A stretch of 64,000 nucleotides of DNA from Caldilineae bacterium (lineage in GTDB: Bacteria; Chloroflexota; Anaerolineae; DUEN01). Shown in pieces: positions 18,586 to 31,516 of the stretch (its first letter is position 1; the number at the start of each line of letters is the position of its first letter). The DNA is taken from assembly GCA_011176545.1 (NCBI GenBank), contig DUEN01000103.1:1-64000 (forward strand), written 5' to 3'. The notes beneath the pieces are model-generated. The model ran no database searches. It saw only the letters and a program-made list of their open reading frames with translations, and was not told where the DNA came from. The position numbers and the translations under genes were made by a program.

Positions 18586-18952
18586 GGTCTGCCCCTCCTT
18601 CTACAACGTTTTAGGCCCGGACCACTCGCTGTCCGGACCGGCCGATGATCCCAGAGCGCGCTAGCGGTCCACGCGCCCCTACCGCCAATCCGGGGGAGCT
18701 CGAAGCAAAAGATCGGCGGATCTCACTTCCTCAAGATGCTTCATGGATGACATGATTGGGTTCCAAACAGCGATCACAAGTTCAAAAGCGGCGACCAAGC
18801 GGATACAACTCGAAGCGAACAGTGGCTACATACCCAAGCACGTCGTCCACACTTCACGATGGGGGCACATTAAGTGTATAGCGATCAGGACGACCTGTCA
18901 AGCCCTGGTTTCATCCACCGGAACAGCGCGGCTTATTTCTCCGCGAATGACT

Positions 18953-18980
18953 TGACATATGTTTAGGAAAAGGTAATATG
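18953..18980 (+). promoter_or_regulatory. Promoter candidate TTGACA - 16 bp - TAATAT upstream of the moaD-like gene
   Basis: Direct reading. Confidence 0.6.
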
Positions 18981-19036
18981 GAGACGTGCTCCGTATATCG
19001 GCTAAGTGGATCGTTAAACGGCCACGAAGCAGTCCC

Positions 19037-19315
19037 ATGCGAGTTCGAGTATACGCCACTTTGCGCGATCTATTGGGCGCGAGAGAAGTCACCCTGGATC
19101 TCGATGGCGAGACGCCGGTGCGAGAGGTGCTCCAGCGACTGACCGAGGCCTATCCGGCGCTGGCCGAGAAGCTGTGGGATGACCAGGGGAATCCCACAGG
19201 CTTCGTTCGCGTGTTGCTCAACGGCAGGCTACTGGAATACCTCGACGGGATGGATACCCTGGTCAAGGATACGGATGAGATCAGCCTCTTCCCGCCGGTC
19301 GGCGGCGGCCGGTGA
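19037..19315 (+). CDS. MoaD/ThiS family ubiquitin-like sulfur carrier protein
   Basis: MRVRVYATLRDLLGAREVTLDLDGETPVREVLQRL ... VLLNGRLLEYLDGMDTLVKDTDEISLFPPVGGGR; the GG motif is followed by Arg. Confidence 0.85.
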   Translation: MRVRVYATLRDLLGAREVTLDLDGETPVREVLQRLTEAYPALAEKLWDDQGNPTGFVRVLLNGRLLEYLDGMDTLVKDTDEISLFPPVGGGR

Positions 19316-19565
19316 TGTCACGCTAAGACTGCGAGGCATCGGCGTCCGGCTGGTCACCGGATACCTCATCGACCTCGGCGGTCAGGAGATCATGCCCGGC
19401 TACGTTGTGGGGGATGGCTGGGAATCATACATCTCCCCAGGTGAGCCGGTGTACGTGGGCTCCATTCGGCTGGGTGTGACCGAGGTCCGATTTAAAGGCT
19501 CCCCCGAAGTCCTCGAACCGCTCCTGAGCCGGTTTGAGATGAAGGTGCTGCGTGCAGGCGGATGA
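19275..19565 (+). CDS. Small conserved-looking hypothetical protein overlapping both neighbours
   Basis: ORF overlaps the moaD-like end and the globin-fusion start; GVRLVTGYLIDLGGQEIMPGYVVGDGWESYISPGEPVYVGSIRLGVTEVRFKG. Confidence 0.5.
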   Translation: MRSASSRRSAAAGDVTLRLRGIGVRLVTGYLIDLGGQEIMPGYVVGDGWESYISPGEPVYVGSIRLGVTEVRFKGSPEVLEPLLSRFEMKVLRAGG

Positions 19566-19587
19566 ACAGGACGAGAGGAGGTCGGAT

Positions 19588-20493
19588 TTGAGCGGAGCGA
19601 ATGGCCACCCCTCACCGATAGAGCTTACCGGATTGATGGCTCCCCCCGAGGAACAATGGCATCATCTGCGTAGCTTCCTGGATCTCAACCAGGCCGATCT
19701 GGACGCCATGGCCCAGACGGTCGAGATCCTTCTGCGTCACGGCCCAGAATTCGTCGTAGGCGCCTACGATCATCTGCTTCACTTCGAGGAGACGGCCGCG
19801 ATCCTGGGTTGGGAACAGGGTGCCGATCCGGAGCACCTGGCCGAGCGACGACGCTTCTTCACCATCTGGCTGGCGCGCACGCTAGGCATAGACCTCAGCG
19901 ACGATATGGCCCGGTATCTGTTTCGGGCCGGCAAATACCATGCCGGGCACGGGCCACGCCGCATCCACGTCCCGGAGATCTACGTGACCGGCGCGATCAG
20001 CCTGGTGCAAGCCAGCTTCGCTCGCTACCTGGCGGCCGAGATGACCGACGCGGCCTTGGTCGCGCAGGCCCTGGCGGGATGGAACAAGCTCCTCACCATG
20101 CATCTACATCTGATGAGCGTGGGCTATCGCGTGGCGCGGGACTGGGATGACGGGGAAATCCAGGTGACGGTCACTCTGTACGGCCGGATGCGCGCCATCG
20201 CCCAAGCCGAGCGCGTGACGCTGCGCGTGCCCGAGGATGCCCGCAGCGAACATGTGCTGCGTAAGTTCTTCAACTACTTCCCCGAGGCGCGGGCCGAGGT
20301 GTTCGACGTGGACTGGGAGGACGGCTACCGATTCGATGATCGCGGGACCCCATGGATGACCGTAGACCGGGTCTATCGTCCCCGGCATAACTGGAACATC
20401 CGGCTGAACGGGCGCAATCTGGAGTACATCGGCGGGTTGATGGCGCCCGTCCACGATGGGGATGAGGTGAACATCTTCCCACCGGGCCGATAA
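19588..20493 (+). CDS. Protoglobin (globin-coupled-sensor type) domain fused to a C-terminal MoaD/ThiS-like domain
   Basis: N-terminal LRSFLDLNQADLDAMAQTVEILLRHGPEFVVGAYDHLLHFEETAAIL and YLFRAGKYHAGHGPRRIHVPEIYVTGAISLVQASFARYL (candidate proximal His). C-terminal VTVTLYGRMRAIAQAERVTLRVPEDA ... NIRLNGRNLEYIGGLMAPVHDGDEVNIFPPGR. TTG start with GAGGAGG RBS; GTG at 19552 possible. Confidence 0.8.
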   Translation: MSGANGHPSPIELTGLMAPPEEQWHHLRSFLDLNQADLDAMAQTVEILLRHGPEFVVGAYDHLLHFEETAAILGWEQGADPEHLAERRRFFTIWLARTLGIDLSDDMARYLFRAGKYHAGHGPRRIHVPEIYVTGAISLVQASFARYLAAEMTDAALVAQALAGWNKLLTMHLHLMSVGYRVARDWDDGEIQVTVTLYGRMRAIAQAERVTLRVPEDARSEHVLRKFFNYFPEARAEVFDVDWEDGYRFDDRGTPWMTVDRVYRPRHNWNIRLNGRNLEYIGGLMAPVHDGDEVNIFPPGR

Positions 20494-20509
20494 ATTCCCG
20501 GAGAGAGCA

Positions 20510-20747
20510 GTAGGGGCGCAGCACCGCTGCGCCTCATGCTCATCAAGTTAACAGCATGTGTAGGGACAGCCCTTATGGCTGTCCTGAATCTGGAGGTATC
20601 GGTAGGCAACACGATCCTCTGTAGGAGCGACCGGCCGGTCGCTCCTACATTATGTAAAGGCAATACGCGCGTTGTCTCTACGTTTCTGTCATGTATACCA
20701 ATTATGAGCGATTATCATGCAATAGGGGCGCACGGCCGTGCGCCCCT
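20510..20747. repeat. Cluster of four GTAGGGGCG-type palindromes (20510-20534, 20560-20586, 20620-20649, 20724-20747)
   Basis: e.g. TGTAGGAGCGACCGGCCGGTCGCTCCTACA (perfect 30 bp) and AGGGGCGCACGGCCGTGCGCCCCT (perfect 24 bp). Confidence 0.85.
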
Positions 20748-20799
20748 GCGTTTCTGTCGGATATGTTGAGGGCTCAGCGGCGCCGAACCCTCGCCATCA

Positions 20800-22617
20800 T
20801 CATAGGATCCCCAGCTCCTTCAGCTTGCTCTCCGGCACCACGCCGTTCTCCCAGCCGCGCGCCCGATAGTACTCCTCCAGCATCTTATCCAGCTCGCAGA
20901 CATGCCCCTTGGAGCCCGACTCCTGCGATGGCTCCTCCAGGAAGCGGGCCGGCAACGTATCGTCCTTGCCATCGAACCCGCAGAGGTTGTTATAATACCG
21001 CTCCAGGTTGTAGATCCGCTCGCCGGTCTTGAGCACATCGTCCGCGGTGAAGGGCACGCCGACGAAGGTCGAATACTGCTGGGCGTACTCCTCGGCGCCC
21101 TCGGCGAAGGCCGAGAATTTGCAGATATCCAGGCTATCGGAGAAGGCGTGCAGGTCCTGTAAGGTCTTCAACAGCTCGCCCTTGCCCTCCCAGGCCAGTG
21201 GATCGGTCTTCAGCGGGATCAGGCCCAGCTCGCTGGCGGGAGTGTAGCCGCGCAGGTGGCAGGCGCCGCGGTTGCTGGTGGCGTAGGCCACACCCATGCC
21301 TTTCAGGCCGCGCGGGTCATAGGCCGGGATCCCCATCCCCTTGACGGCCATGGCCAGCTCGGGATGGCCCAGCTTCTCCGCGGCCGCGCCCGTGCCCTCA
21401 GCCAAGATATCGCCGATCCCCTCGCGGAAGGCGATCTTGCGCATCAGCTCCACCATGCCGTGGGCATCGCCCCAGGAGAGGCCCTCGCCTTCAGCGGCGT
21501 AGCCGCGCTGGGTATATTCCATATACATGGCCAGCACATCGCCGATCTCAATGGCGTCATAGCCCCAGTCGTTGCATCGATCGATCATATAGGCGATGGC
21601 GCAGGCATCATCGTTGCCGCACATCGCGCCCAGCGACCACGCCGGCTCGTATTCCAAGCTCTCCATATGGATCTTGAAGTCGCCTTCCTTAACCTCGACC
21701 TCCTTCTTGCAGGCCACGGGACAGGCGTGGCAGGTGGGGTTCTTGACCAGGATATGTTCCTTCACCCACTCGCCGCTGATCTTCTCGCCCTTCTCGCCGA
21801 AGCTAGTCGTCTGCGCGTTACGCGTCGGCAGGGCGCCCATATTGTTGGTAATGTTCATCAGCACGTTGGTGCCGTAGACCGAGAGGCCGCCCTTGCGCGG
21901 CGCGGTTACGTTCGCCTCGTCCATGATAGTAGCCAACGCCCGTCGATGGGCCTCCCGGAAACCATCCCGGTCCTTCGGCCGTGGCCGATCCTCATGCTTC
22001 CCCCTGATGACGATGGCCTTTAGCTTCTTGCTGCCGCCCACACAGCCGGTGCCACCACGCCCTGAGGCCCGGTCGTTCTCGTTGACCCAGCAAGCGAACT
22101 TAACCAGGTTCTCGCCCGCCTGGCCGATGGCGATGATGCTCAGGTTCTCCTCGCCATGGCGCTCCTGCAGGATCTTGACAGTCTCGTGGACCCCCTTGCC
22201 CCACAGATCACTGGCGTCCCGCAGCTCGACCTGGCCGTTCTCCACGTAGGCGTAGACCGGCTTCTCCGCCTTGCCCTTAAAGACCAGCCCATCGAAGCCC
22301 GCCCATTTCAGCCGGGCGGCTGACCAGCCGCCATGATGGGAGTCAACGATGGTCCCCGTGAGCGGCGACTTGGTCACAATAGCCATGCGCCCGCTCATGT
22401 TGACATCCGTGCCGGTCAACGGGCCGGTCATGAAGCACAGGATGTTGTCCGGTGATAGGGGATCTACCTGCGGGCCGTTGTCGAACACGTACTTCACGCC
22501 CAGCCCGCGTCCGCCGATGTATTTGCGGGCGTCTTCCTCATCGATTGGCCTGTAATCGACTTTGCCTGTGGTCAGGTCGATCCAGGCCACCCGGTTGGCA
22601 TATCCGCCTAGTTCCAT
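20800..22617 (-). CDS. Aldehyde:ferredoxin oxidoreductase family protein (tungsten-pterin enzyme family)
   Basis: WIDLTTGKVDYRPIDEEDARKYIGGRGLGVKYVFD; GPLTGTDVNMSGRMAIVTKSPLTG; CHACPVACKK; AIEIGDVLAMYME; NLERYYNNLCGFDGKDDTLPARF. Confidence 0.95.
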   Translation of the reverse strand: MELGGYANRVAWIDLTTGKVDYRPIDEEDARKYIGGRGLGVKYVFDNGPQVDPLSPDNILCFMTGPLTGTDVNMSGRMAIVTKSPLTGTIVDSHHGGWSAARLKWAGFDGLVFKGKAEKPVYAYVENGQVELRDASDLWGKGVHETVKILQERHGEENLSIIAIGQAGENLVKFACWVNENDRASGRGGTGCVGGSKKLKAIVIRGKHEDRPRPKDRDGFREAHRRALATIMDEANVTAPRKGGLSVYGTNVLMNITNNMGALPTRNAQTTSFGEKGEKISGEWVKEHILVKNPTCHACPVACKKEVEVKEGDFKIHMESLEYEPAWSLGAMCGNDDACAIAYMIDRCNDWGYDAIEIGDVLAMYMEYTQRGYAAEGEGLSWGDAHGMVELMRKIAFREGIGDILAEGTGAAAEKLGHPELAMAVKGMGIPAYDPRGLKGMGVAYATSNRGACHLRGYTPASELGLIPLKTDPLAWEGKGELLKTLQDLHAFSDSLDICKFSAFAEGAEEYAQQYSTFVGVPFTADDVLKTGERIYNLERYYNNLCGFDGKDDTLPARFLEEPSQESGSKGHVCELDKMLEEYYRARGWENGVVPESKLKELGIL

Positions 22618-27405: not shown

Positions 27406-27801
27406 TTATCTCAACTGCGGCCGAAATTTATAACCATACAGGATCTGGCCCTCAGGGCCATCCTCTTTGAGCTTACGCGTGACCATCTCCACCGGCATGC
27501 CGATCTGGACTTCCCCCGGACGGACATCCGTGAGTTGCGCCGTCACCATGGGTCCCTCCTCCAGTTTGATGAGGGCCACCGTGTACGGCACGTATTCCTC
27601 GAATCCCTCGGGGGCGTCATACATGGTGGAGAAGGAGAAGACCTCCCCACGCCCACTCAGCGCGTGGGCCGTCTGCGCCTGCTCCGCGCAATGCGGGCAT
27701 GTATCCCTCGGCGGGAACAGCACGCGGCCGCATGTATCGCAGACCTCTCCCACCAATCGGTATCTTTGCTGGCGAACGCGCCATTCACGTGCGATGTGCA
27801 T
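27406..27801 (-). CDS. Zn-ribbon/OB-fold DUF35-type acyl-CoA-binding protein
   Basis: REWRVRQQRYRLVGEVCDTCGRVLFPPRDTCPHC; GEVFSFSTMYDAPEGFEEYVPYTVALIKLEEGPMVTAQL. Confidence 0.92.
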   Translation of the reverse strand: MHIAREWRVRQQRYRLVGEVCDTCGRVLFPPRDTCPHCAEQAQTAHALSGRGEVFSFSTMYDAPEGFEEYVPYTVALIKLEEGPMVTAQLTDVRPGEVQIGMPVEMVTRKLKEDGPEGQILYGYKFRPQLR

Positions 27802-27967
27802 GACCGTGCATCCTCCTCGAGATTCGCATTTTCAGGCTGTCCCTATTCTACCGAAAAACGACTCTCATGAACTATCACTCCAGAGAGTCGTTCCCCTTTG
27901 GCAGTTTTTGACAGCTTTTACATTTGCCATGCTGCACAGGGATACACACATGGTGGTGCCATGCCCC

Positions 27968-29137
27968 CTAATCAAGGGCCTCCAGGATATGCGTGATCGC
28001 TGTGGCGCCGCTGCCACCGACGTTCTGCGCCATGCCAATCCGCGCGTCCTGCACCTGATTGGGGCCGGCGCGGCCGGTCAACTGCTGCACCACCTCCACG
28101 ATCTGATAGATGCCCGTGGCCCCGACGGGATGGCCGCGTGCCTTAAGCCCCCCCATCGTGGAGATTGGGATGCGGCCCTCGATGGAGATCTCGCCATCCA
28201 TCGCCAGCAGGGTCCCCTTGCCCCGCCGGGCGAACCCGGCCGCCTCAAGGGATAGCGCGGCTGTGATGCTAAACGCGTCATGGAGCTCAAACAGGTCGAT
28301 GTCGGAAGGCCGCACGCCAGCCTGAGCGTATGCCTTCTGGCTCGATAGAAACACCGCCTCCAGGAAGAGCGGATCCCGTCGGTCGTGAATGGCCACGGAA
28401 TCCGTGACGATGGCCGAGCCCATGACGCGCACAAGCCCATGTTTCTGTCGCGCTCGCCGGGCGAGCTCGCTGTCGGCCGGGGCGAGCACGACGGCCGCGG
28501 CCCCGTCACAGATGGGCGATGAGTCCAACAGGTTGATGGGGTCGGCGATCATGGGGGCCTGGCGATAGGCCTCCAATGTGATAGGACGTTGGAACATCGC
28601 GTTAGGGTTCCCGGCCGCGTTGCGATGCGCGTTGATGGCGAAGCCGGCGAAGGCGTCATGGGGCACGTCATATTCGTACATATAACGCCGCATCAGCAGA
28701 GCGTTCAGGGCTACGAAGGAGACGCCCTGGCCAGCCTCGTACTCCTGATCCGCCGCCATCGCCAGCGCGGAGGTGATCACTTCCGATGGGCTGTCCGTCA
28801 TCTTCTCCACGCCGACGACCACGACCACGTCGTGCAGCCCGCCGGCCACGGCGATGTAGCCGATGCGAAACGCGGCCGCCCCTGAGCCACACGCCGCCTC
28901 TATCTTCACAGCTTCAATGCCGCGCAGCCCCGCGAAATCCGCGATCAACGCCCCCAGGTGCTCCTGTCCGGTCAACTCCCCAGAGAGCATATTCCCCACA
29001 TACAGGGCATCGGGACGCTCCACCCCAGCCTCCTCCAGCGCGGCCTGCACCGCGTCGTGCGCGAGATGTCGCAGCGAGCGCTCCCAATGCTCACCTACAG
29101 GGGTCTGGCCGATGCCGATGATCGCCACATCACGCAT
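27968..29137 (-). CDS. Thiolase family protein (archaeal-type acetyl-CoA acetyltransferase)
   Basis: VAIIGIGQTPVGEHWERSLRHLAHDAVQAALEEAG; EAACGSGAAAFRIGYIAV; NLLDSSPICDGAAAVVLAPA; GGLKARGHPVGATGIYQIVEVVQQL. Confidence 0.94.
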   Translation of the reverse strand: MRDVAIIGIGQTPVGEHWERSLRHLAHDAVQAALEEAGVERPDALYVGNMLSGELTGQEHLGALIADFAGLRGIEAVKIEAACGSGAAAFRIGYIAVAGGLHDVVVVVGVEKMTDSPSEVITSALAMAADQEYEAGQGVSFVALNALLMRRYMYEYDVPHDAFAGFAINAHRNAAGNPNAMFQRPITLEAYRQAPMIADPINLLDSSPICDGAAAVVLAPADSELARRARQKHGLVRVMGSAIVTDSVAIHDRRDPLFLEAVFLSSQKAYAQAGVRPSDIDLFELHDAFSITAALSLEAAGFARRGKGTLLAMDGEISIEGRIPISTMGGLKARGHPVGATGIYQIVEVVQQLTGRAGPNQVQDARIGMAQNVGGSGATAITHILEALD

Positions 29138-29143
29138 CCCGTC

Positions 29144-30193
29144 TCACCTCGTCAGCAGCTTTCCCCGAAAGCGCGCGTATGTCGCGTAGTCGATCGCCTG
29201 CCTCCGAGCGATGTATTCCCTGGTCAACGGCGCCCGATCACGACGTTCCTCGATGTGTTCCGTCACGACCAGGGATAAGGCGTCGCTACCGGCCCCAGAG
29301 CCAAAGCTGACTAGGAGGATCCGATCCCCCGGCTTGGCCTCGTCCAATACAGCTGCAAGGCCCAGCAGCGACGAGCCAGCATAAGCGTTGCCAATGTGAT
29401 CGACCAGCAGGCCAGCTTCGATCTGCTCCGGGCGAAAGCCCAGCATCCTGGCCACCCGCCGGGGGAATTTGGCATTGGGTTGATGGAACACGGCGTATCG
29501 GAAATCACCTGGCTTAAGATCCAACTCGGCCAGCAATTGCCGCGCGGCTGAGATGATGTGGTGGAAATAGGCCGGCTGGCCCGTGAAACGCTGACCATGA
29601 CTGGGATATCGGGCGCACGATCGCCGCCAGAAGTCCGGCGTATCGGTGACATATGAGACGGACCCCTCGAACACGGCGAGGCTTTCCTCAGCCGGCCCGA
29701 TCACAAAGGCCGCGCCGCCGGCGCCGGCCGTATACTCCAGGGCATCCCCCGGCCGCCCCTGGGCCGCGTCCGTGCCGATGCTCAGAGCGTAATCCGCCAT
29801 GCCTGAGCCCACCAGCCCGATAGCCGCCTGAATCGCCTCCGTCCCGGCTTTGCAGGCGAACTCCCAGTCGGCCGCCTGGGTGAACGGCACCGCGCCGATG
29901 GCCTCCGCCACGATGGTAGCCGTGGGCTTCACAGCGTAGGGGTGCGACTCGCTGCCCACCCACACGGCCCGGATCAAGGTGGGATCGATCCCGGCACGAG
30001 CCAGTGCGTTACGCGCGGCCTCGATGGACATCGTCGCCGTGTCCTCATCCAACCCGGGTACGGCCTTCTCCTCGATCGGCAATGGGCTCTGGCCATTGCT
30101 CCATACCTGCGCCACCTCAATGGCCGGCAGGCGATAACGGGGCACATACGCCCCATACCCTACAACCCCCACGGACCGGATCGGCTTTAACAT
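29144..30193 (-). CDS. Hydroxymethylglutaryl-CoA synthase (archaeal type)
   Basis: [67 protein letters not shown]; start MLKPIRSVG. Confidence 0.92.
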
Positions 30194-30194
30194 C

Positions 30195-30234
30195 CCCCAA
30201 TCTCCAATTCCCAATCTCTAATCTCTACCCCGAT
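30195..30234. repeat. GAGATT(A/G)G-type short tandem repeat (family C)
   Basis: Minus strand reads TAGAGATTAGAGATTGGGAATTGGAGATTGGGGGATG; related copy at 51697-51755. Confidence 0.7.
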
Positions 30235-31516
30235 AGTCCGCTAACAGTTCCTGCGCCCGATCGAGCCGAATGACCCGCTCAGCCACCATGCGATCCACCA
30301 CCCAGTCGATCTCGTCCCCGACGGCGCCCGCGGCGATGGCCACCTGCCGCGCGTGCAGCTCCATGTGCCCGCGCTGAATCCCCTCCGTCGCCAGGGCCCG
30401 AATGGCGGCCAGGTTCTGCGCCAGTCCCACGGCGACCGTCACCTCCGCCAGCTCGCGGGCCGTCTCAACGCCCAGGATGCGCAGCGCCAGCCGGGCCGTC
30501 GGATGGACGCGGGTGGCGCCGCCCACCGTGCCCAAGGCGAGGGGCATCTCCAGGCGCCCCACCAGGTTGCCTTCCGCGTCCTTCTCCCAGACCGAAAGGG
30601 ACCGGTATCGGCCATCGCGGGCAGCGTAGGCGTGCGCGCCGGCTTCCACGGCCCGCCAATCGTTCCCCGTGGCGATCACCACCGCGTCCACGCCATTCAT
30701 GATCCCCTTGTTATGCGTCGCCGCGCGATAAGGATCCACCGCGGCCAGCGCGTGCGCCTCGACGATGCGATCGACCACCAGCGGCCCCGGGAAGTCCTTC
30801 GTCTCCAGGGCATGGGGCGGGATCACGCAACGCGCCCGCGCCATGCGCCGATCGGCCAGATTGGAGAGGATGCGGAGGTTCACGCGGCCTCCGGTGATCT
30901 CCTCAACCACCGGGGCCAGGCTCTCACACGCCGTGTTGACCGTGTTGGCGCCCATAGCATCGCGACAATCATACAGCAGGTGGATCACCAGCATGGGGCC
31001 CACGGGGCTTTCCGGCACGATGCGCGCCTCGATATCGCGCGCGCCCCCGCCCAGGCGAACGATCACCGGATCCGTCCGGTTCGCCAAGTCCAACAGGCGT
31101 TGCTTTTGGGCCAGAACGGCCGCCCGGGCGACCTCCACATCCTCTAGATCGAGCACCTGGATCTGACCGATCATGACCGGCTCGTCGGTCTCGGCGTGAA
31201 AGCCTCCCCCCTCACGCGCCAGTCGAGCGGCGTAGCTGGCACCCGCCACCACCGAGGGCTCCTCGATGGCCATGGGGATCAGGTAGTCCCGCCCGTTGAT
31301 CAAAAAGTTGACGGCGATGCCCAACGGCAGGGCGTGCAGGCCGATTACGTTCTCGATCATCTTGTCCGCCTGAGCCAGGGTGAGGCTTTGGCGCAACATC
31401 GCCGTCTCCGCCTCGTCAAGCCCGGCCCACTCGGCGACGATCCGCGTACGCTCTTCGACGCTTAGCTTGTAGAAGCCGCTCAATCGAGACGATGGCACTT
31501 GTCCCTCCACATACAA
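30218..31516 (-). CDS. Hydroxymethylglutaryl-CoA reductase, class II-like
   Basis: SRLSGFYKLSVEERTRIV; MENVIGLHALPLGIAVNFLINGRDYLIPMAIEEPSVVAGASYAARLA; DCRDAMGANTVNTACE; ATHNKGIMNGVDAVVIATGNDWRAVEAGAHAYAAR. Confidence 0.96.
   Translation of the reverse strand: MYVEGQVPSSRLSGFYKLSVEERTRIVAEWAGLDEAETAMLRQSLTLAQADKMIENVIGLHALPLGIAVNFLINGRDYLIPMAIEEPSVVAGASYAARLAREGGGFHAETDEPVMIGQIQVLDLEDVEVARAAVLAQKQRLLDLANRTDPVIVRLGGGARDIEARIVPESPVGPMLVIHLLYDCRDAMGANTVNTACESLAPVVEEITGGRVNLRILSNLADRRMARARCVIPPHALETKDFPGPLVVDRIVEAHALAAVDPYRAATHNKGIMNGVDAVVIATGNDWRAVEAGAHAYAARDGRYRSLSVWEKDAEGNLVGRLEMPLALGTVGGATRVHPTARLALRILGVETARELAEVTVAVGLAQNLAAIRALATEGIQRGHMELHARQVAIAAGAVGDEIDWVVDRMVAERVIRLDRAQELLADYRGRD

Follow-up and report, generated by a model that had tools for sequence, protein, structure and literature searches.

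A protoglobin fused to a MoaD-like domain, recurring beside tungsten-enzyme and nitrogen-oxide respiration genes

Globin-coupled sensors and protoglobins (among them AfGcHK, HemAT, DosC/BpeGReg, MaPgb and ApPgb) belong to one globin family, represented by the Pfam profile PF11563. The sensors have an N-terminal globin and a C-terminal partner, a kinase, MCP, cyclase or similar domain, and are known to drive signalling and taxis enzymes. MoaD, SAMP1 and SAMP3 are sulfur carriers (PF02597, NF041918, TIGR01687) that have the beta-grasp fold, an NGR...GG...D..FPP core and a C-terminal diglycine for adenylation and thiocarboxylation. Some MoaDs are linked to genes for tungsten-type aldehyde:ferredoxin oxidoreductase (AOR) and have been described as likely tungsten-cofactor partners (PMC1779556; PMC6365974). 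AOR-linked MoaD and MoaD-DUF1952 proteins include Thermus 1V8C, Aromatoleum aorD/aorE and Thermococcus UblC (TK1065). Deletion of the AOR-linked ubiquitin-like protein (Ubl) of Thermococcus approximately halves AOR activity and, in one medium, abolishes FOR activity (PMC11323500).

The DUF2249/DUF1858 proteins DrpA and DrpB of T. thermophilus regulate Pnar and Pdnr, and mutants lacking them show altered nar expression and a NarG whose activity is reduced to a tenth or lost, from which the authors of that study infer a role in maturation (PMC6282519).

We describe a gene that joins the first two of these systems in one polypeptide and that recurs near the other two. The globin-coupled sensor, the MoaD-like Ubl and the AOR-linked MoaD are already known kinds, and their union is the new part: in the open-licence literature we found no paper joining a protoglobin with a MoaD or ubiquitin-like domain in this way. 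A MoaD-like output domain is thus new for globin-coupled sensors within the literature searched, which does not prove its absence elsewhere. Sequence records from Thermus go no further than the labels 'protoglobin domain-containing protein' and 'hypothetical protein'.

The fusion gene and its two domains

The window, that is, the whole 64,000-nucleotide stretch of Caldilineae bacterium DNA that was analysed, contains the following features at the locus.

18952-18979, plus strand: promoter-like site before the MoaD-DUF1952-fusion gene run, a consensus match only
19037-19315, plus strand: AOR-linked MoaD/SAMP1-like protein, ending ...FPPVGGGR
19311-19565, plus strand: DUF1952 domain ending LRAGG, in the +1 frame relative to the MoaD reading frame
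19588-20493, plus strand: protoglobin-MoaD fusion protein, TTG start, ~301 aa
19648-20130, plus strand: Protoglobin domain PF11563, residues 33-193
19765-19767, plus strand: Tyr codon (Y72, invariant), by alignment to AfGcHK at the position of the B10 Tyr on the distal side in sensor globins
19939-19941, plus strand: His codon (H130, invariant) within KYH, candidate proximal haem ligand
20158-20490, plus strand: MoaD/SAMP1-like beta-grasp domain, including a family-specific hairpin with an invariant Trp
20479-20490, plus strand: invariant C-terminal PPGR in place of the diglycine tail
20800-22617, minus strand: tungsten-type AOR, assigned by profile, convergent with the fusion

An earlier note on this DNA, made from the sequence alone, had read the gene as a protoglobin sensor joined to a MoaD-like domain that lacks the diglycine, with a start at TTG 19588. 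Profile searches, an AlphaFold2 model, Foldseek and homologues agree that it is a real two-domain gene. The open frame extends from GTG 19552 as far as its stop at 20493. We prefer TTG 19588, as the note did, because AGGAGG lies just 5′ of it and the ATG of an 81% identical homologue aligns there, and the mature product is therefore ~301 aa. Residue numbers here (H130, Y72, W106 and domain limits) are counted from 19552; 12 is subtracted for the TTG start. Full-length homologues of 46-81% identity in many genomes rule out a frameshift, a chimera or an assembly artefact confined to this strain. Viral contigs searched for the fusion gave no match.

The N-terminal half matches PF11563 with an E-value of 8.1e-18 (65 bits, the cut-off being 25), and in Foldseek it resembles AfGcHK and other sensor globins and protoglobins (TMt 0.84-0.90), with the 3-over-3 globin fold. 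An insertion in its FG loop resembles that of true protoglobins. The His in KYH, which the note had proposed as the proximal ligand, lines up with the proximal His of both AfGcHK and ApPgb; H130, Y72, W106 and the PPGR end are invariant across 32 aligned Chloroflexota sequences, and the His and Tyr are also kept in the Thermus homologues. The structure model contains no haem; from these alignments the protein probably binds it.

For the C-terminal half of the window copy alone, the PF02597 ThiS match (0.0046) is below the Pfam cut-off. The NCBIfam profiles SAMP1 (3.8e-9) and moaD_arch (2.1e-7) match this half more clearly, and ThiS is matched by all 16 family members aligned (best 2.8e-9). Foldseek finds SAMP1 (TM 0.83), Pfu MoaD (0.81) and HVO_2177, so that a beta-grasp fold of the ThiS/MoaD superfamily stands where the note had placed it. 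The AlphaFold2 model, built from 33 homologues (pLDDT 89.8, pTM 0.86), closes the globin half with a helix at residues 167-199, and the opening beta strand of the MoaD domain starts at 203.

The fusion differs from both parent families. Unlike globin-coupled sensors, it has no middle domain and its partner is a MoaD-like beta-grasp domain, not an output domain of a described signalling type. Unlike the MoaD/SAMP carriers, it sits behind a globin, has an extra hairpin with an invariant Trp and ends in PPGR, a tail two residues shorter than FPPVxGG. PPGR ends every homologue seen, never Gly-Gly, whether among the 32 aligned sequences, in a second Chloroflexota class or in Thermus, which rules out decay of the diglycine in a single copy; the ending that the note had remarked on is strictly conserved in two phyla. 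AOR-linked MoaDs adjoining the fusions keep their glycines (FP[PA]VGGG or similar). Because these MoaDs of the same loci retain Gly-Gly, PPGR is a trait of the fusion family and not of the lineage.

Full-length fusions were found in 31 named Anaerolineae contigs in one genome scan and in 11 of 100 related genomes, and three genomes of the phylum from outside class Anaerolineae also carry one; most genomes compared are metagenome assemblies. Outside Chloroflexota, where plasmid records were searched and one pattern-limited scan of genome contigs was made, plasmids of Thermus thermophilus and T. brockianus carry a 35% identical, almost full-length homologue with the same His, Tyr and PPGR; the Thermus homologue has the accession WP_014511187.

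Tungsten oxidoreductase, MoaD and DUF1952 neighbours

The gene order in the window is MoaD, DUF1952, fusion and then the convergent AOR. The earlier note had pointed to the AOR and overlooked the upstream Gly-Gly-ending MoaD (19037-19315) and the DUF1952 domain that follows it (to 19565). The AOR is assigned by profile and by similarity to 9q1t and 1aor, its closest solved structure being Haloferax WOR83 (9q1t). Two perfect palindromes without a loop lie between the fusion and the AOR, one at 20620-20649 (15-base arms) and one at 20724-20747 (12-base arms), the latter forming the stem of a terminator-like site.

Pfam gives no match for the window DUF1952 copy alone. It is identified through PF09189 matches in the homologous genes of four genomes, and a profile of the family matches the MoaD-related protein 1V8C of Thermus in its C-terminal half (E 3e-11). 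The window copy, in the +1 frame and without a clear start codon, possibly reflects a frameshift, a rare start or a split fusion. DUF1952 beside an AOR-linked MoaD almost always ends L/M-R-A/G-G-G, a second diglycine-like tail, as observed at 19311-19565 and at five further loci; at three of those five it is fused in frame to MoaD. The MoaD and MoaD-DUF1952 proteins carry no globin, and at the fusion locus they are neighbours of the fusion, not the fusion itself.

Neighbourhood genes were called by a simple composition score with profile checks. One AOR subfamily lies within ~6 kb of the fusion at 16 of 38 loci; in the window (18986-22617) the AOR is accompanied by an adjacent MoaD-like gene, and 15 further loci have the AOR, most with the MoaD-DUF1952 pair. 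The fusion gene shares linkage to AOR with the AOR-linked MoaDs described before (PMC1779556). Several arrangements occur: MoaD-DUF1952-fusion convergent with AOR; fusion and AOR co-directional with MoaD-DUF1952 facing them; fusion and AOR divergent in one genome; and the two 4 kb apart in another. The subfamily (at least 61% identical) is distinct and, with rare exceptions, was seen in a single copy per genome. Of the 11 fusion genomes 10 have it, whereas in the whole set of genomes it occurs in 21 of 100 (Fisher p 2e-7; since these counts share ancestry, the family-level p of 2e-5 is the safer figure), and the sole fusion genome without it is 70% complete. In several fusion genomes the AOR lies elsewhere, not beside the fusion. 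The link to a tungsten AOR made in the earlier note is therefore borne out by neighbourhood and by co-occurrence alike.

AOR-family genes in general are found in 86 of 100 genomes at E 1e-30, and some Anaerolineae genomes have at least 13. It is very unlikely that the MoaD-like domain now serves an entirely different purpose and that the AOR link reflects nothing but a shared microaerobic or denitrifying life-style, for although AOR-family genes are common in the class and about eight loci have neither partner nearby, only the one subfamily accompanies the fusion, and it is physically adjacent at 16 loci in several gene orders.

Elsewhere in the window, at 27406-31516 on the minus strand, genes for a thiolase, an OB-fold ChsH2-like protein and HMG-CoA reductase lie together in one run and may represent a cluster for a bacterial mevalonate pathway.

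Nitrogen-oxide respiration genes near the fusion

A second recurrent context, unseen in the earlier note, consists of nar genes with drpAB (in Thermus), nosZDFY(L), DUF2249 genes and genes for haem-copper-like membrane proteins. The Thermus homologue sits in the nar cluster of megaplasmids. Upstream of it are narCGHJI, a NarK-type transporter, a DUF2249 and a DUF1858-DUF2249 protein and a haem-copper-like membrane protein of 144 aa; downstream are a protein with multiple membrane helices and a DUF59 Fe-S assembly protein. The two DUF2249 proteins (72 and 273 aa) fit the published DrpA and DrpB in size, domains and position, and are gene neighbours of the globin-MoaD gene, from which they differ in family. 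In the strains read here, the drpB gene overlaps the next reading frame by one base, and that frame stops two bases before the fusion. Since the published drp mutants are cassette insertions (PMC6282519), a polar effect on the fusion gene is possible if strain NAR1 itself carries the fusion.

In Chloroflexota the fusion comes after nosZ-nosDF-nosY(-nosL) cluster genes at three Anaerolineae loci; at two of these, NosD and NosF (an ABC ATPase) form one polypeptide. In the second Chloroflexota class, DUF2249 is directly upstream of the fusion in two of three genomes. Haem-copper-like membrane proteins are encoded near the fusion at 11 loci. This recurrent family has short (~140 aa) and long (~410 aa) forms, the long form with a conserved HAHSH motif; its similarity to COX1 is weak, and it gave no Pfam family above the cut-off and no solved structure of a relative. 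Crp/Fnr genes adjoin the fusion at three loci. The co-occurrence of nosZ with the fusion is weak (6/11 against 14/89, p 0.0075).

About eight of the 38 loci have neither AOR nor the nitrogen-oxide context nearby. No operon partner common to all solo loci was found, the neighbours at five of them belonging to unrelated families; on wider comparison, many solo loci have haem-copper-like membrane proteins, nos genes or DUF2249.

Mapped on the tree of the fusion, the AOR label needs at least six changes and the nitrogen-oxide label at least five, both fewer than in any of 500 shuffles. The contexts therefore cluster, but each has been gained or lost several times, and both links were made or kept repeatedly. 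The note had proposed gas- or redox-responsive control of the AOR or of cofactor synthesis. Its AOR link holds, but AOR is one of two recurrent partners, since nar, nos and DUF2249 clusters also recur. Given these contexts, NO is no less likely than O2 to be the ligand.

How the fusion might act

Our leading but tentative reading, to which we give somewhat less than an even chance, is that a haem-based sensor of NO/O2 uses its MoaD face to dock on the machinery that matures Mo/W enzymes. What the loci share is a soluble globin that keeps its haem-ligand residues, a MoaD fold closely joined to it and unable to carry sulfur, and neighbours that are either Mo/W enzymes or respiration that makes and uses NO. 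The N-terminal globin of this cytosolic protein would bind NO and/or O2 at a haem ligated by the His, with the Tyr in its distal pocket. The globin's long final helix is predicted to run almost directly into the MoaD/SAMP1-like domain, so ligand binding could be relayed as an altered shape or oligomeric state. Because it ends in PPGR, the MoaD-like domain cannot be a sulfur carrier or a conjugated tag; it may instead be a docking module with the usual targets of MoaD-type proteins, here the machinery for maturing Mo/W-pterin enzymes or loading their cofactor. Candidate targets would be AOR, with its dedicated MoaD-DUF1952 pair, and nitrate reductase in Thermus. Docking and release would then gate the output of active Mo/W enzyme by NO or O2, in whichever direction.

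Besides the two folds, the conserved His, Tyr and PPGR and the repeated linkage to AOR, the position of the Thermus copy in the nar cluster, just downstream of drpAB with their inferred maturation role (PMC6282519), supports this docking reading, as do the precedents that an AOR-linked Ubl affects W-enzyme activity in Thermococcus (PMC11323500) and that SAMP1 attached to MoaE inhibits MPT synthase (PMC4443979). Against it weigh the roughly eight loci without either context, the fusion genomes in which AOR lies elsewhere, the weak co-occurrence with nosZ, and the nos loci, whose enzyme is a copper enzyme and whose Mo/W link is therefore indirect; in addition, the drp phenotype of Thermus may be unrelated to the fusion gene.

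The same linkage to O2- and NO-sensitive enzymes and to denitrification clusters would be expected of a tethered scavenger, a globin for binding or oxidising NO, or for taking up O2, which the MoaD-like domain merely brings to a sensitive AOR or nitrate reductase for protection. Protoglobins bind O2, CO and NO in vitro (PMC3680402). We consider a scavenger unlikely: the unit encodes no reductase partner for NO dioxygenation, and the rigid, direct join to a conserved output-like domain, as modelled, looks more like a sensor.

The regulators near the fusion allow a different role, as an adaptor in transcription that senses NO or O2 and acts through DrpA/DrpB, other DUF2249 proteins or Crp/Fnr, the MoaD fold serving as a generic protein-protein module. 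DrpA and DrpB, which control Pnar and Pdnr (PMC6282519), are encoded upstream of the fusion in the same gene run, DUF2249 is directly upstream in two genomes of the second Chloroflexota class, and Crp/Fnr genes adjoin three other loci. This is nonetheless distinctly unlikely, as the AOR loci have no conserved regulator gene beside the fusion and the AOR-MoaD-DUF1952 link is left unexplained.

The earlier note had suggested a non-conjugating regulatory or decoy carrier. Its non-conjugating part fits the missing diglycine. A pure decoy, whose MoaD-like domain would occupy MoaE or the E1 (MoeB) and lower molybdopterin synthesis in one ligand state of the globin, fares worse and is less likely than a docking sensor; we rate it as more doubtful still than the transcriptional adaptor. 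It accords with a MoaD fold lacking Gly-Gly and with SAMP1-linked MoaE being an inactive form of MPT synthase (PMC4443979), but loss of Gly-Gly would suffice for a decoy, yet PPGR is invariant in two phyla. Moreover, this genome (92.7% complete) yielded a single MoaE, and it is fused to a Gly-Gly MoaD of its own. That polypeptide (contig C178, L087:1015-1776, minus strand) has its MoaD at the N-terminus and its Gly-Gly internal (FPPVSGG-TDAKRR), and its gene adjoins genes for an apparent MoaC and for an ABC ATPase; like mycobacterial MoaX, it probably has to be cleaved.

Taken to its full extent, the docking reading describes a haem gas sensor with a catalytically dead ubiquitin/MoaD-like output that would control loading or activation of W/Mo enzymes, a direct, non-transcriptional NO/O2 route reaching from Chloroflexota to Thermus; in this broad form it is possible, though we lean towards doubt. 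An output of sulfur-carrier fold would constitute a new output class for globin-coupled sensors. If the reading is true, gas sensing would be linked to Mo/W-cofactor enzymes, and there would be a concrete answer to how facultative and microaerobic bacteria adjust tungsten enzymes sensitive to O2 and NO, and also nitrate reductase, to their surroundings. In Thermus the fusion gene shares its gene run with drpAB, mutants of which produce a nitrate reductase whose inactivity has had no explanation (PMC6282519), and the idea is therefore testable in a transformable organism. The interest of the fusion rests on this testability, on its conservation and on its wide spread in Anaerolineae; its recurrence beside a tungsten enzyme or genes of nitrate and nitrous-oxide respiration suggests an undescribed form of gas control over metal-cofactor enzymes.
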